Origin: Lineolata rhizophorae
Lineage: Eukaryota > Ascomycota > Dothideomycetes > Lineolatales > Lineolataceae
DNA length: 26,339 nt
Assembly: GCA_010093515.1 (NCBI GenBank)
Contig: MU001682.1
Span: 942,174-968,512, forward strand
Direction of reading: 5' to 3'
Shown: piece by piece, positions 1 to 23,317 of the stretch
Numbering within the stretch: position 1 is the stretch's first letter
Layout: every line of letters begins with the position of its first letter
The notes under the pieces: generated by a model
What the model was told of the DNA's origin: nothing
Seen by the model: the letters and a program-made list of their open reading frames with translations, nothing else
Database searches by the model: none
Program-made: the position numbers and the translations under genes

Positions 1-29
1 CGACTCGGTGATATTGACGACTCGGTGAT
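1..29. repeat. Direct repeat at left edge
   Basis: CGACTCGGTGAT occurs at 1-12 and again at 18-29, a period of 17 bp. The array may continue outside the window. Confidence 0.6.
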
Positions 30-1517
30 GAAACACGTTAGTTTAATTTTATCTCCTTTTACGAATACTGAGCTTTATTGTATATTATCAAGCTCGCATG
101 GCATATTTTAGAAGCCTCATAGAACACATTTCCGGAGTGATACATTTCAAAGATCTTTGGCTGCGGAAGAAGTCTGAATTGTAACTTAAGCTAGAACATA
201 TGGTTCACCCTTGAACATTTTTATAAATGATATAATCTCAAACTGCTTTCCGTCGCTTCGATAATAAAGTTGGTAGTATGCTATGAAACTGTAGATTCAC
301 GTCTCCTAGCGATGTCTTTGGAACTAGCAATGATCAAGCATGCATCGTTGAAATTGAAAGTACAGGAATTGAGAAGTCCTAGAAAAAATGACACTGCATC
401 AAGTTGACGTCACTGCATAGTTGGAATTGGGTAATAACAGAACATGGTCATAAGTGCTGTAGGTAGTTTGGTACCCAGGTAGACACTGATAGATTCACAT
501 GCCTCAGTTAAGGCTACAATGCAACCGCACCACGACCTCCGCCTTGCACGCCACCACCTCGTTCTCCGTTATCATACCAGGTTAGACGAAAGACAGTAAC
601 ACATCACCGACAACAACTGTTGTTTCACGAAGAATCTCACCTCATATGAGGCCCTTCCCTTCCTCTGGCATAATGGCAAAATGGCACAGTGCTCCTAGCA
701 TAGCTGCCCAAACCACTGTGGCGACAAGCGTCGCCGTGAGCCAAAGCCGGCAAGATACCCAAAATTCCAGGTAAGTCGAGAGACACGACGCTCTCGTTCG
801 ATCGCCCTTGCAATCATCTACCTGTAAACTCGCGTTCCGACCACTTGTGATCAATGCTATAATGCGAATCTTTCGTTGACACCTGCGACACGACACGAGC
901 AGCGAATCAAGGTAGTCCTTCCCGGAAACGATCGCCGGGGGACTCAACATCGCCAACGGCGACGAAGCGTTCACCGCGACACTTTCTGGCCTTCAAAATC
1001 TTGCTCACCAGCAGCGACGGCGAGCCTATAAACAATGAGGGGCGTGCTGCAGAGGACTAAGTCGCATTGTGTCAGCCTTATTGCACGCAGTGGGTTGCGT
1101 GCAGCTGGGTGGAGCTGGGGCTCATGATCAAGGACAGCATGCTGAGCGTTGCCGTCGTTCTTTTTGACACACATTTGACGTGTCCACTGAGCTTCATTGC
1201 GCTTCATCTGTCGCGCTTCAGTCCGCTCTATCCATCATGCTTGGGTGTGCCCAATACAGACTTGGGACGATAGGTAATCCAGCTGTTGTTAAGCGCATGC
1301 CGCTTGGACTAATATGATTCCTTTTCACACGAAGCATGCGAGCGCATGGCGGCCAGTAGCCGGCCATTTGTTGAAGGGTCCGCTATCTACAGCTGTCCCT
1401 TTCTGAATATGGACCATCGGATAAATACACAAAATAGTCGACTTGCCAGTTCAACCTCTTAGCAGCCCCACAACAACAGCGCCAATCTATTTTGCAAGAC
1501 AACCCGACATCGCCAAA
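30..1517. other. AT-rich intergenic sequence, no gene seen
   Basis: Open frames here are short, lie on both strands and show no recognisable motif. I see no tRNA-like box B, repeat array or transposon terminus. Confidence 0.5.
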
Positions 1518-10740: not shown

Positions 10741-12740
10741 AGCTTTCGCTCTTTTCGTTTTCCTTCTTGATAGTGTAGGCTTGGGGATTACTTTTTGGCT
10801 TGCTTCGCAATCCATAAATGACATGCGCGGGCACTTTTGAGCTTGCACCTTATCTTGGTCGCACATTTTGGCTTGTGATTGCTACGACATGCGTCCTATC
10901 TGGACCACGCCGGCTCTTCCACCCTACCCTCTTGCGTCTCACGACGTTCAATCCCCCATGCAACCGCCTGCAGTCTCTCCTCTACCAACCCGGCGGCATC
11001 CAACTAACTCGGGCGTATTAATAATCTTGCACTGTCTCCCCGCATCTTCATCCTCTATCCATGCCTCACATCGCCGTAAACCTTTCTACCCAACCCCCAC
11101 CGACCCGATCCCCTCTCCCTCTTTTCCAACCAACCATCTCTGCCCAATTTCCAACACACACAACTGCCGCACCCTCTCCCCCCGGCCCGCCCAGCGTCAT
11201 CGCACGGCATCCCGTCCTGCGCACCCCAATCTAAATCTATTCGTGGACCATGAAGCAGCGACGCGCGACGGGGATTTAGACACCCCGGTCACCACATCCC
11301 TGCGCGGGCCACGGCGAGCGCCCAGACGCGCGCCGCGCGACGCGAGGCTCTTTGGGACTGAGTTGAAAATGGCCTAGACCTTAGCGGGGGTGGTGGTTGG
11401 ATGGAGGCGACTTGGCGAAGTGGTGATTGGGTGGGATGGCGTTTGGTGTTGAGTGGCTTTGGACAGTGCGCGAGAAGTGAGGCTGTGGTCGTGATGAGTC
11501 TGGATCTTTGGAGGCGCCAGATGTGGTGGATACGATGGAGCTGGATTCTTGGATCGGCTTTAATGCTCGACGAAGTGGCAGAAGGTATTGTTTTCGCCGC
11601 GATGCTAACTTCGGAGAAGGCTGTGTCTCCAACGCGCTGTCCTTGTGGTGTATTTTGATCGCGTCGAGGGTTGTTTATGCGACTTGGTTTGTGTCTTTCC
11701 GAGCAACAATGTCGTTGTCCGTGGTTTCCCTAGTCCGACAACTCGTTCTAGACGACTGCGACACACATAAGGCTCAACTTCCCCTTCGCACAATGCATCT
11801 CCACCAACTTTTCGCGACTTTCGTTGCAATCTTTTACGGATTCCTCTTCAAGCTGTTTTGCTATACGATGTGTAGCCGGAATGGCCCAAGTCGTCCATCA
11901 GCCCATTGCATATGCCGACTGCCGAATCTTTTCCACTCGTCTAGTGTTTCAAGTTGTAGTATTTCTGGAGCAAGGAAGTACCTCTGAAGGTGAGTTGATC
12001 CGAAAGGAGACTGGCATCGAAGTTGGATCTAGATTATTCTAGTCCCTGTTCTCGATAAGATCACCATTCTTCATGGCCTTCCTGCCCATCAATAATTACA
12101 CGACACACCAGGCTCTTCATTTTCTGACGCCTTTAGGCCTAGTTCCTCTTCGTAGATCTCGACGACAGTGTTCGTAGTCAGTGGCAAGCAGGAAGTGTCT
12201 TTGGCGTGTTCGCATGAAGACAGACAATTTTGGGTGAAATGATGCGCGAATATTGTCTCCGCGACCATTCCGGTCTTTATTCGGATCAAGAAAAGCCAGA
12301 GCTCGTATCCATCCATGAAGCGTCCAAGAAATCTCGACTTGTTCTGGTTGCTCTTCAGAGGGTCCACTTCTATAAGGTGGCGTTTGGCCGCCTTTCTGAG
12401 GAGAAAGAGAAGGGGGTCATAAACCAGAGCGCCGGAAGTGCGCGCTCAGGTGTTATTCTGGTCGCTACTGCTTTGGGCGACACGAGGTTCTCCAACCTGG
12501 TACCTGACACCCTTCCTCTGCGCTTTCCGAACCTAGGTCGAGCAACTCCCCATGACTTCCCGAGCTAAGGCTGGAAGTCCTGACCGTCTTCTGTTGCGAG
12601 AGGCGACATGGGTCGATGAGCTCGACTGGAGAGTGGGTGGGCTGCGACCTCTCCCCCACCCCCTCCCGCTTTTTACCTCCGGCCCCACGTGCTTCCATCA
12701 GCATCGCGCTCTCCGGCCGAAGATAGAAGCGGGAGATGGA
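10741..12740. other. Pyrimidine-rich then mixed intergenic sequence, no gene assigned
   Basis: From about 10,900 to 11,230 the plus strand is strongly C/T-rich, as in many fungal promoters or leaders. However, the downstream frames (for example 11508-11987 and 12230-12568) have no recognisable domain, and I could not build a convincing exon chain. A real but unrecognised gene with small exons is possible here. Confidence 0.35.
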
Positions 12741-18200: not shown

Positions 18201-18311
18201 CCGACACAACACCATCAAAGTGGCAAACCCCAAACATCACAAGTGAGAAACAGCAAATTTTCTTCTTCAGACACCTACCCAAGGTAGGAAGAATGATGAA
18301 AAAGAGTCAAG
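15290..18311. other. Intergenic sequence, no gene assigned
   Basis: A frame at 15541-15999 on the plus strand contains a strong splice-donor-like GTGAGTATT at 15878-15886 and could be the first exon of an unrecognised gene. No downstream exon with recognisable content follows, so I do not call it. The rest is AT-rich with short frames only. Confidence 0.35.
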
Positions 18312-18502
18312 GGGAGTTCGCATCAGCCCGATGTAGTGTAAGACGAGCGACACAATGCCCAGGGGGATGAGCAAGCCCAGAAGGCCCCCCAGGCGAATGC
18401 CAAAAACTAGATTAATCACTAGGGTCCATAGACCCCGATACAGCGATTAAACTGTATTGAACAGATACTTCGTTTGATCAAAGCCAAAAGGCTAAGAGAG
18501 CT
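18312..18502 (-). ncRNA. U2-like spliceosomal snRNA with altered branch-point-recognition sequence
   Basis: The 5' half matches U2 snRNA, which pairs with intron branch points in the spliceosome. Reading the minus strand from A18502, it has stem-loop I (AGCC-TTTT-GGCT, 18493-18482), GATCAA, AGTATCTGTTC (18469-18459) and stem IIa (ATACAG/CTGTAT, 18457-18438). Stem IIb (GGGTC/GACCC, 18435-18422) and an Sm-like AGTTTTTGG near 18408-18400 follow. Next is a 10-bp stem III (18394-18385 with 18366-18357) whose two central pairs are G·U only in the minus RNA. The hexamer that should be GUAGUA reads GAAGUA (18471-18466), and the two bases before it are also changed (AC for GU). The U34 equivalent, which pairs in the branch helix, is replaced by A. 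The 3' end is approximate and stem IV is not clear. It is either a divergent, possibly specialised U2 or a pseudogene with an intact promoter. Confidence 0.85.
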
Positions 18503-18521: not shown

Positions 18522-18575
18522 GGTGCGCGACCTTGGGAGGGTTTTTATACCTTTGTCGAGGAAGTTTCCAGTGAC
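18522..18575 (-). promoter_or_regulatory. snRNA-type promoter of the U2-like gene
   Basis: On the minus strand, GAAACTTC (18568-18561) is followed 10 bp later by AAAGGTATAAAAACCC, with TATAAAAA at 18549-18542. The TATA lies 47 bp before the inferred U2 5' end, and a pyrimidine tract fills the gap. The whole block recurs in inverted orientation at 19745-19797. Positional conservation suggests a proximal element plus a TATA box. Confidence 0.75.
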
Positions 18576-19744: not shown

Positions 19745-19797
19745 GTCACGAGAAACTTCGCCGCTAAAGGTATAAAAACCCCCCAAGCTCGGGCACC
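19745..19797 (+). promoter_or_regulatory. snRNA-type promoter upstream of HD3
   Basis: Aligned with the promoter of the U2-like gene, 45 of 54 columns are identical with one 1-bp gap. Shared words are GTCAC, GAAACTTC, AAAGGTATAAAAACCC, CCCAAG and GCACC. TATAAAAA is at 19771-19778. By analogy, transcription would start near 19819, after the pyrimidine tract. Confidence 0.7.
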
Positions 19798-19818
19798 CTT
19801 CCTTCTCTTCTTTTTTCC

Positions 19819-20467
19819 ACATGTTTGAGGCGCGACAGTGTCACGGGTGTGATGGGTAATACCATAGCATAAGTGAGTCCTCACTCCTCCCCAATCCTTT
19901 ACCTTGGGAAAGTTAACGCCGCGCCTGGCGCGGGCTACACTATCCCGGCTTGTCGGGTTGTCTCAGCCATTATGACGCAAAAAGCTCTTGCTCCATTTTT
20001 GGAGACTTGTCAAACCTGGATTGTTGTCTAGCACACAGTCCTAGTGTTGACGGAATTTTTGGTACCCTTAAAGGTTTCGCGCCTGCAATCTTCATCTTCC
20101 TCTGGAATTCTCATCAAAACATAACTAAGCTAAGTTTTCCTACACAATTCTTCAGCTGAAGTCAATGATTTTGCTGTGCAAAGCACAGCCTACACGCTGG
20201 TGGCTTGCCACCTATTGTTCTAGGTCGATCTGCAGAGATCTCAGACAGCTTTTTAGTGTCTGCAATTTCTCTGGCTCGGTTCATCTAGCCAGATTTCAAG
20301 TATCGTCTAATTTGTGGGCTTGTCGGATCATTTTTGAAGTATAATCTAAGGTCAGGCTTATCTGGCCTTTGAAGTATCCTCTAAGAAAGTATCGTCTAAT
20401 TTCTGATTAACCCGGGCACGTCCCAATTGTTTAGAGGTTTAACAACCTCAATAACCATTTTTTTTTT
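19819..20467 (+). ncRNA. Candidate structured ncRNA HD3 with Sm-site-like motifs
   Basis: The locus starts after a promoter nearly identical to that of the neighbouring U2-like gene. Two exact AUUUUUGG motifs, the consensus Sm-protein site of snRNAs, lie at 19995-20002 and 20055-20062. The first sits in a small hairpin (CTCCA/TGGAG). Stem-loops are dense: 19872-19885 (6 bp), 19919-19933 (7), 20150-20161 (CTTCAGCTGAAG), 20173-20189 (7), 20199-20212 (6), 20227-20240 (5), 20242-20262 (6), 20270-20293 (7), 20348-20369 (8 with one U·G in plus RNA) and 20434-20449 (6). A run of ten T at 20458-20467 may mark the 3' end. A shorter RNA ending just after the second Sm motif is equally possible. It does not match U1, U4, U5, U6, U3, RNase P or SRP landmarks, and no telomerase template was found. 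No coding potential is evident. Confidence 0.55.
20298..20399 (+). repeat. Four copies of AAGTATCNTCTAA
   Basis: Copies at 20298-20310, 20337-20349 (two mismatches), 20372-20384 and 20387-20399 lie between the HD3 stem-loops. Spacing is irregular (39, 35 and 15 bp), so this is not a simple tandem array. Confidence 0.7.
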
Positions 20468-23317
20468 CATCATTCGTCTTGCCTTGTGCAAGTACCTGAG
20501 GAAGAAAACGGTTGAACAGAACGCGGTGTGCAAATGTAGTGTTGGTTGCCGATGAGGTACGGTATGCTAACAACTGCGGCAGAACGTCGTGATAGTAGCT
20601 CTTGGTGTTGACCCACCTCTACTCGACGCAGTTGTCGGTGTTAGAATGTTACCTTCTGCAGTGTGCTAACACCTATCTGCCTTGCTCGGCAGTGTCATCC
20701 ACATTATGAATTTTGTGTGAGACTGTGGCCGGCCGACTGCACAGGTTGCTAAGTACCGGGGGCTGTAGCTACATGTGGACTGGTCACCTGGTCTCATCTA
20801 ATGTCTTTTCGCCAATATCCGCAAAAAAGCCGTTGAATTTCGCTTACGAAGCAAAAGTGTCGAGTAACACGAAGCCCACGATAGCCTATTTGCCGGGCCA
20901 GCATCGTCATACGCGGAATCACTCTCAACAGTGCCGACCTCTCGTCTAGAATCTTGTTGCCTAGGTTGACGCTGTATCATACACTTGGAACTTGCTACTG
21001 AGCCTGCGTGTCTATCTTCACGGCGCCACGACCGCAAGTGTGAGGTGGCCGGTAGGCGCTAAGAAAGCGCGTCACGAGGAACGCGACTGTCTCAGGATAG
21101 CGCAGCTCCAAGTTACAATAACACGGTACATTTTGTGTGATTTTCTCTCTTAATAGCTATTGCTGACCCGGGTTATCGGTGATAGACCGTGTTAGAGAGA
21201 CTCAACCAAGCGAGGTCCGCGGATTGCATCCGTCAAGAGCTCGAGCATGCCAACCAGTCACCTAACCATCGCAAAATTCATCGTGGAAGAGTCAAAACCT
21301 CAATCGACGCTTGTACATTGCGACATCCAGCTCTTGAATCCGCCAAAGCGCACTCCATATTGTGGAGCTGTTGCTCGACGAAAACCCATGATTCAGGCGC
21401 GTGAAACATCAAAAGGCTTGAGTGGTCGAGCGCCTGTGCTGCTGGCACAAACTAGGCCATACAATGTAGAGGGAAGCATTACGACAGAGCTTGCTACTTG
21501 GGAGCGTAAAACATTGATAGAACAACGATATCTAGTATCTTGAGAGGCCGGCTAAGAGTAGTGATTGTAGACCCGATACTACAATACATCCATACTGTTT
21601 TCAAAAACAAGAAGCAGCATCGCGACACGGAGATACGTTAGTCTTTCGACCGCTAAGGTGACAAGGGAATGAAGTACGGTGCACTTGAACGAGCTGTCGA
21701 TATGGATCTTAAGACGACATCATACTTGGCCCTTTCTTTTTTTTTTCCGTGTAGAGATGCACTGGATGTGTTTCGCCATAAGTGTCGGCTGTACCATCGT
21801 GAAAATATGAATGGAGGTTCAACTACATATAGCAGGTCTAGAGCAGACGATATGTATAAAGCATGGCTAAAGAAATAATCCGAGTCTATCTTGGAATGAG
21901 GCTCATGATATGTATTTGTAGGGCATGAGCAGTTCAAACTGCCTTCCATGAGGCATCGATGGCTAACAAACTCATTGAAAGGTTAGTTTGTACAAGACTG
22001 ATCCCACACGAAACTATCGAGAAACGGCGAAGGAATTTATCCACATATCACGTATTGGACGCAGCCTAGCCATATTTTCTCTCCAAGTTAAAGAGAGAAG
22101 AAAAAAATATGGAACGTATGGCGGCGCAAAAACAATGGCGAATCGGTTTCCATCACACTACAATGTTGCTTGCACTAGGGCTTGCTCCCCTCGTCAACCC
22201 CGCGTATTATTATCTCTACCTATGGACGAAACATGCCGTACGGCGAGGTAAACGACGGTCGGTCGAAGAACGTGAAAGGAATAGACGCGGCTGTATGTCG
22301 AGGTGGATGAACACCTAACAAATCATTAGCGCTTGTATTTAGCATGCATTGTAATATGCACCAAGTTGTTTTCGAGGGCTTAGCAAGACAAACGGCGAGC
22401 ATACGTACACATCCAACTCATGAAGCGATGTAAAGAGAGCTCTAGATGCGTTCGGCTTGGTTGCTTTGGCTGGAATTTGAGGATAGAGCATACATTTGTA
22501 CCATATGTAGAAAACGTTTCCACATATGCGTCATGCCATTCATCCACTGCCGCAATTTATGTGTAGTATGGTTGAACTATAACAGCATTGTTAGATCAGT
22601 CAAGAATAGCTGAGTTGGCGCGACTGTAATACCTTTTGGGTAGCCCTGCAGCACCGGAACACCAGACGAAAACTTCGTTATGAGACAACATAAACACCTG
22701 ATGATCAAGATAGAAACCCCTAGATAAAAGTCCTCAATCTAGACAACGCCCCCGAAAGGACTGTCGGCTCTCAAGCTATCTTCCATCCAAGAATTCTGCT
22801 CTTTCCCTGTCATGGCGCATAACCATGAAAGTCTGTCGCAGTGGTAGAAGGCCGGCCGTAGCTGCGCGCATGGAAGGACCTTGTCAAGGGTTGTGGTATG
22901 GGATCTATGTCCGGAAACAGACCAATGTATTGGGGTATCTGCTCTCTTGCATGGCAAAATACAACTTAATGACATTATTGTCGACTCGAGTCGTTCTCGT
23001 AGAGAGGTCATGAATAGACCTGGCTGTGCATGACGTTTTATTAGCTGCTGGATCACGATGGAGAGCGTATGTACGCGTACCTGAAAACATACTCGCGTTC
23101 GATGGTGAGTTCTGTGACTGCGAGCAGAGTTTGCAAATTTAACGTATTTTGACAGCGAAGGGTGTTTTGGCAGTCGTGTGTATTATCCAAAACCCAACTA
23201 AAAGTCCTGCCACTGCTACAGGTTTCGCGGTTATAGCATCGGTCGTTCGTAGACACGCACATGATATGCGTGGATAAGGAAGCTCTGTAGTGTCGTTGCG
23301 TCGCTGTATTAGAGTCT
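20468..23317. other. Intergenic sequence, no gene assigned
   Basis: Two further stems lie just past HD3: 20637-20673 (GGTGTTAG/CTAACACC, 21-nt loop) and 20677-20692 (CTGCC/GGCAG). Beyond about 20,700 the sequence is AT-rich, with short frames that lack recognisable domains. Confidence 0.4.

Follow-up and report, generated by a model that had tools for sequence, protein, structure and literature searches.

An old, dispersed class of U2 snRNA genes with an altered branch-site-reading hexamer in the fungus Lineolata rhizophorae

RESULTS AND DISCUSSION

A U2 gene with a GAAGUA hexamer

Few stretches in eukaryotes are as conserved as the hexamer with which U2 snRNA reads the intron branch site. 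In the Lineolata rhizophorae genome, seven U2 genes carry GAAGUA in its place, with A instead of U at position 34, beside seven genes with the canonical GUAGUA, and these A34 genes are an old, dispersed, and structurally maintained class. Because the base is changed in every copy found of this class, the sequences suggest that the class may read a different intron signal, and our leading explanation, to which we assign a probability of roughly 0.4, is that it is an old accessory U2 class that shifts branch-site choice. A natural seven-gene class with a shared hexamer change and compensated stems would offer a ready-made experiment on whether a cell can use two branch-site codes at once. It would also bear on the role of pseudouridine at position 34 and on the evolution of snRNA gene families when copies are dispersed, and should the copies prove redundant, they would still show which core positions are tolerated in nature.

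The stretch of DNA that was analyzed as a whole (the window; 26,339 nucleotides, C13:942174-968512 in a genome of 31 Mb and 48 contigs) contains one of the seven genes (L008). A sequence-only reading of the window had proposed a U2-like snRNA at 18312..18502, naming no strand. On the minus strand, the Rfam U2 model (RF00004) aligns to 18504-18311, with ends within two bases of that proposal. The gene is full length (model positions 1-192 of 192) and scores 119.6 bits where the gathering threshold is 46 (E = 4.9e-24). Only 0.00 matches to the 20-base U2 core with up to two mismatches are expected in shuffled sequence. The hexamer GAAGUA lies at 18471-18466 (minus strand), corresponding to U2 positions 33 to 38 when numbered by the Rfam consensus, as is done throughout, and the replacement of U34 by A falls at 18470. 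Both other core changes that had been listed, G31 to A (18473) and U32 to C (18472) in the 5' strand of the branch-site stem-loop, were recovered in the alignment, together with a further class-specific change that the list had missed, A24 to U (18480), directly ahead of the GAUCA stretch. Since GAAGUA replaces GUAGUA, the window RNA is filed as a U2 variant and not as an ordinary member of the family.

The remaining parts of a U2 gene are in place on the same strand. By reading, stem III has 10 bp, including one U.G and one G.U pair, as had been described, and the Sm-type site AGUUUUUGG lies at 18400..18408. The snRNA-type promoter consists of a TATA box (TATAAAA, 18543..18549), with similar boxes ahead of U2 and U1 genes, and an upstream element (GAAACTT, 18562..18568) at near-fixed spacing to the TATA box. 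At 18264..18299 stands a 3' element composed of TCATCATTC, the hairpin TACCTTGGGTAGG, and GAAGA; elements resembling it were read behind U1 and U4 genes, and it is likely to be a signal for 3'-end formation. The loop of stem-loop IV, which is the motif for U2B'', carries two private substitutions in the window copy, and this copy may therefore be weaker than its class. Elsewhere in the window, a weak mir-3072 match in a GC-rich stretch (12610-12685, plus strand; 32.1 bits, cut-off 86) was taken as chance, and ARAGORN reported no tRNAs near the 16 U2 loci.

Two U2 classes in one genome

A U2 family search of the genome that scored 46 of 289 first-look candidates gave at least 16 U2 loci above the cut-off. 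When position 34 was left free in a core-pattern search, 14 places were found, 7 with GUAGUA and 7 with GAAGUA, and none with C or G at position 34; the reversed control gave 0 matches. This search finds only cores that are otherwise intact, and copies with other core changes would escape it. The other two of the 16 loci, which have degenerate cores (L015 and L016), were excluded from the class counts and structure counts. The A34 copies comprise four on contig C8 within 83 kb and three on C13 within 74 kb, and the seven U34 copies are spread over C9, C12, C34, and C37. The A34 genes are thus confined to C8:991-1074 kb and C13:923-997 kb, and no U34 copy was found on either of these contigs.

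In a tree of the 14 RNAs, the two classes fall on opposite sides of one branch (SH-aLRT, 98; bootstrap, 94, that is, recovered in 94% of bootstrap trees and just below the program's mark of 95, with the diagnostic columns included). Five alignment columns, among them positions 24, 31, and 34, have no letter common to both classes. Position 24 is A in all seven GUAGUA copies and G or U in all seven GAAGUA copies; the class difference at position 31 depends on the alignment. Canonical U2 (RF00004), including the seven GUAGUA copies found here, has the same length as the A34 class, the same stems I to IV (with IIa and IIb), and an Sm-type site, and the GAUCA stretch, promoter, and 3' element are likewise common to both. 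It differs in having U34, in lacking the class changes at positions 24 and 31, and in lacking the extra base that precedes the hexamer in five of the seven A34 copies. Among the matches listed in a limited search of titles and abstract starts in open-licence PMC, there was no report of a natural fungal U2 class with an altered hexamer.

U2 decay does occur in this genome, as the degenerate L015 and L016 and a 3' fragment (L049) indicate. By reading, what remains on the minus strand of L049 is the 3' half of a U2 gene, with an intact 3' element and without a recognizable 5' half; it was absent from the 16 U2 family hits and had no Rfam match at E values up to 1.

Age and structural maintenance of the A34 class

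Likeness among the U2 loci is limited to the RNA and to flanking sequence of at most ~105 bases on the upstream side and ~85 on the downstream side; the few inter-locus matches beyond that zone involve further units of snRNA type, in L008 and L011. Over the 21 pairs of A34 copies, flanks between -310 and -150 are 66 to 79% identical, against 67 to 78% in letters shuffled once per pair, while the RNAs themselves remain 80 to 97% identical. Because the flanks have reached the level of shuffled sequence while the RNAs stay alike, the duplications that gave rise to the class are old.

The A34 RNAs retain the U2 fold. Of 315 pair cells in the seven copies, 92.1% are standard, compared with 86.3% in shuffles (a value reached in 0 of 500) and 33 to 49% in slid controls, and 10 pairs are changed on both sides, compared with 5.4 in shuffles (1 of 500); the shuffles do not preserve relatedness and the slid controls do, with the structure derived from one of the tested copies. 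For all 14 copies, the corresponding figures are 88.8% of 627 pair cells and 13 pairs with two-sided changes. Stems I, IIa, IIb, III, and IV are kept in the class, with compensation where they vary, except for one stem I pair that is lost in four A34 copies and weakened in the other three. The five-U run of the Sm-type site is invariant in all 14 aligned copies, and the stem-loop IV loop GUAUUGCACU is exact in all seven GUAGUA copies and in four of the seven GAAGUA copies. Positions 33 to 45 are invariant across the A34 copies, partly as a consequence of defining the class by the GAAGUA core and of leaving out two degenerate loci; 813 of 20,000 permutations also gave 13 consecutive invariant columns, so this figure lends only modest support.

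The promoter is also kept. GAAACTT and TATA at near-fixed spacing stand ahead of 13 of the 16 U2 loci (all seven GAAGUA copies, six of seven GUAGUA copies, and neither of the two degenerate copies) and, in the window and loci L001 to L047, at only one place besides U2 loci (19752, plus strand). The loss of promoter and of core constraint that marks a U2 pseudogene was thus seen at L015 and L016 and not in the A34 class.

These observations bear on two explanations that had been put forward for the window gene. That it is a recently decayed copy, or that the A34 genes are decaying pseudogenes whose structure was kept fortuitously, is very improbable: the two private loop IV changes of the window copy and the decay visible at L015, L016, and L049 fit such a process, yet the two degenerate copies have lost GAAACTT and the core while the seven dispersed A34 loci share U34A and keep promoter, Sm-type site, and stems, with two-sided compensation and saturated flanks. 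An assembly or sequencing error at the window locus is a negligible prospect by comparison, because the same change stands at seven separate loci with different flanks.

Predicted branch-site reading

Position 34 of U2 is normally a pseudouridine, in fungi as elsewhere, and an A at this position leaves no room for that modification. In human U2 as described in PMC13167188, the partner of position 34 is the base that immediately precedes the branch A, and pseudouridine is modelled at positions 34 and 37. Nearest-neighbor energies with the branch A bulged indicate that GUAGUA prefers A or G at the -1 position (-0.7 kcal/mol) over U (+1.2), whereas for GAAGUA the most favorable base is U (-0.5), with A at +2.0 and G at +0.9, so the preference at this base amounts to about 1.4 to 2.5 kcal/mol for naked RNA with proteins ignored. 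On this modelling, A34 should change the favored neighbor of the branch A from A or G to U, that is, to CTTAC-type sites. Discrimination between the classes may nevertheless be small, because the energies ignore proteins and because the four pairs 35 to 38 alone score equally well or better (-1.0 to -1.6 where computed, and -1.5 to -1.6 when GAAGUA faces A or G at -1). If expressed, an A34 U2 would be expected to enter spliceosomes and to favor CTTAC-type sites. The human RNU2-2 variant n.35A>G, at the adjoining position, may promote cryptic branch sites according to PMC13083260.

A preference for CTTAC branch points had been proposed from the sequence, and the pairing energies fit it, but intron counts gave it no support. 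In a genome-wide pattern count in donor-to-acceptor context, CTTAC occurred 198 times against 197 for the reversed control, an absence of excess in a count of low power that is further blurred because the donor core GTAAG reads CTTAC on the opposite strand. A count over 226 kb gave 4 CTTAC against 14 reversed, 15 CTAAC against 10, and 13 CTGAC against 7, numbers that are too small for a census. Two attempts at calling introns by codon use in 200 kb yielded 2 and 124 candidates, many of the 124 doubtful, and so provided no branch-site census. Both introns of the window's tyrosinase gene (Pfam tyrosinase) have CTGAC shortly upstream of AG by reading, as the sequence-only reading had stated. In Fusarium, CTTAC-type sites are rare: PMC5677156 gives CTRAY as 91% and CTHAH, which includes CTTAC, as 4.99% in its table and 3.96% in its text.

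Possible roles of the A34 class

Under the reading that we favor, the A34 RNAs would be transcribed, would form particles with the Sm and SF3b proteins that ordinary U2 also uses, and would enter spliceosomes. There, A34 would be unable to pair with the A or G of CTAAC or CTGAC but could pair with U in CTTAC-type sites. The variant snRNP would act as an accessory particle, beside that of the seven ordinary copies, and would shift or slow the choice of branch site in a minority of introns. A stronger form of this idea, which we regard as rather doubtful, would place two major U2 snRNPs in one nucleus, the ordinary one reading CTRAC and the A34 form, without pseudouridine 34, reading U before the branch A in a small or condition-specific set of introns. 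The most serious competitor, itself somewhat unlikely, is tolerated redundancy, in which many dispersed U2 genes are not homogenized, position 34 faces a weakly constrained branch-site base, and one lineage drifted there to become an ordinary, slightly weaker U2 without special targets. The missing CTTAC excess (198 against 197) and the about equal duplex energy left to pairs 35 to 38 agree with drift of this kind, as do the mild relaxation of stem-loop IV in the class and the existence of dispersed 5S rRNA genes in a filamentous fungus (PMC2441463). Drift accounts less readily for the joint, class-wide difference at positions 24, 31 (alignment dependent), and 34, or for the replacement of U34 by A only, whereas the stretch of three or four bases preceding G33 shows four forms in seven copies.

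Alternatively, and in our estimation improbably, the variant snRNPs could serve as a regulatory decoy, binding U2 proteins and perhaps U6 and engaging branch sites poorly, so that active U2 is lowered or tuned, possibly at a growth stage. Altered recognition combined with an intact promoter, Sm-type site, and stems is what such a decoy would need, and over-stable forms of the branch-site stem-loop are linked to reduced fidelity in yeast in PMC13083260. In two of the seven A34 copies (L012 and L013), the ensemble energy of this stem-loop is indeed -3.4 kcal/mol, against -0.38 (about -0.4) in six of the seven ordinary copies. However, the strengthening is not class-wide: the other five A34 copies range from about -0.6 to -1.5 (L007 and L008, -0.57; L004 and L005, -0.86; L006, -1.5), with a median for random letters of -1.1 to -1.4, and the ordinary copy L010 itself reaches -2.1. 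A stronger branch-site stem-loop was accordingly rejected as a trait of the class. Sequence alone cannot separate the specialized use that we favor from titration, both of them options named in the sequence-only reading. Mimicry of a 5' splice site is a far-fetched alternative, in which AAGUAU of the class would pair with the U1 5' end; the motif is the complement of AUACUU, which every one of the seven U1 loci has at its 5' end, but with a duplex energy of -3.7 kcal/mol in three variant forms tried, against -3.9 for ordinary U2, there is no energy gain, and the idea was rejected.

Comparison with known systems

An engineered orthogonal U2 in yeast, in which a second U2 with an altered branch-site hexamer operates alongside the normal one, is a laboratory construct; the A34 class is natural. 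Animal U2 paralogues and human RNU2-2 resemble the A34 class in being sequence-diverged U2 genes within one genome. Drosophila has six U2 genes encoding five isoforms, paralogues are also described in mouse and silk moth, and isoforms can differ in expression, with some variations overlapping important motifs (PMC4291461); compared by description only, a class-wide hexamer change is not among the features named in that account. Human RNU2-2 n.35A>G, reported together with stem-loop variants, is likewise a single change in the branch-site-reading stretch and is predicted to enter spliceosomes and possibly to alter branch-site choice (PMC13083260). As presented there, however, the RNU2-2 variants are disease variants of one gene, and the A34 class is old, inherited, and made up of seven genes. 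The dispersed 5S rRNA genes described for Podospora (PMC2441463) are another case of small RNA genes spread across the genome of a fungus but are not spliceosomal and have no recognition sequence at stake.

Other snRNAs and protein partners

Genome searches gave seven U1 loci, all under the Rfam gathering score and all with AUACUUACCU at the 5' end, one U4 match, one U5 match, and one U6 match above the cut-off with another just below it. With seven U1 and at least 16 U2 loci against single U4, U5, and clear U6 genes, the expanded snRNAs are the two that read introns; in the copies found, the reading stretch is changed in U2 only and not in U1. No U12 (RF00007) match was found in the genome, and control genomes likewise gave none. 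The second U6-like gene (L018, C17:441854-441958; 43.6 bits against a 44-bit cut-off) has ACAGAGAGAUUAGC one base shorter than in the main U6 and GCUCGG in place of GCAUGG. One U1 locus (L024, C13:936263-936409) lies among the A34 U2 genes of C13 and has the usual 5' end and stems that look the most diverged of the seven.

Duplicated protein partners for a second U2 were considered and rejected. SF3b1 had one match in the genome, and SF1 had two side-by-side matches, read as one gene in two exons; with each found once, a second U2 snRNP would have to share these proteins.

Further snRNA-type units

A second snRNA-type unit lies in the window at 19752-20502 (plus strand), with a U2-type promoter (GAAACTT at 19752 and TATA at 19768), the same 3' element as the U2 gene at 20467, and ~640 nt enclosed from a start at ~19820. 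It had no Rfam match above family cut-offs, and further searches with 19780-20140 returned chance-level scores. Its body is single copy in the genome, where seven other matches cover the 3' element only. AAGUAUNNUCUAA occurs four times within about 100 bases of the unit (20298-20399), compared with 0.34 matches expected in the window when one mismatch is allowed, and had no exact match in 47 loci examined; an Sm-like AAUUUUUGG lies at ~20054. The unit may encode one RNA or two.

Similar units occur near other loci. At L011:2834-2943 (minus strand; ends guessed), ~1.1 kb from a U2 copy, a gene for an Sm-type RNA of ~110 nt has a TATA box, folds strongly (z = -4.56), carries the shared 3' element, and has no Rfam match above cut-off. 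In L048, an snRNA-like TATA promoter and a 3' element enclose ~360 nt (~300-660, plus strand) that had no Rfam match at E values up to 1, and a further snRNA-type promoter with GGAAACC and TATAAAAACC was read at positions 1-75 (minus strand), directed out of the examined stretch.
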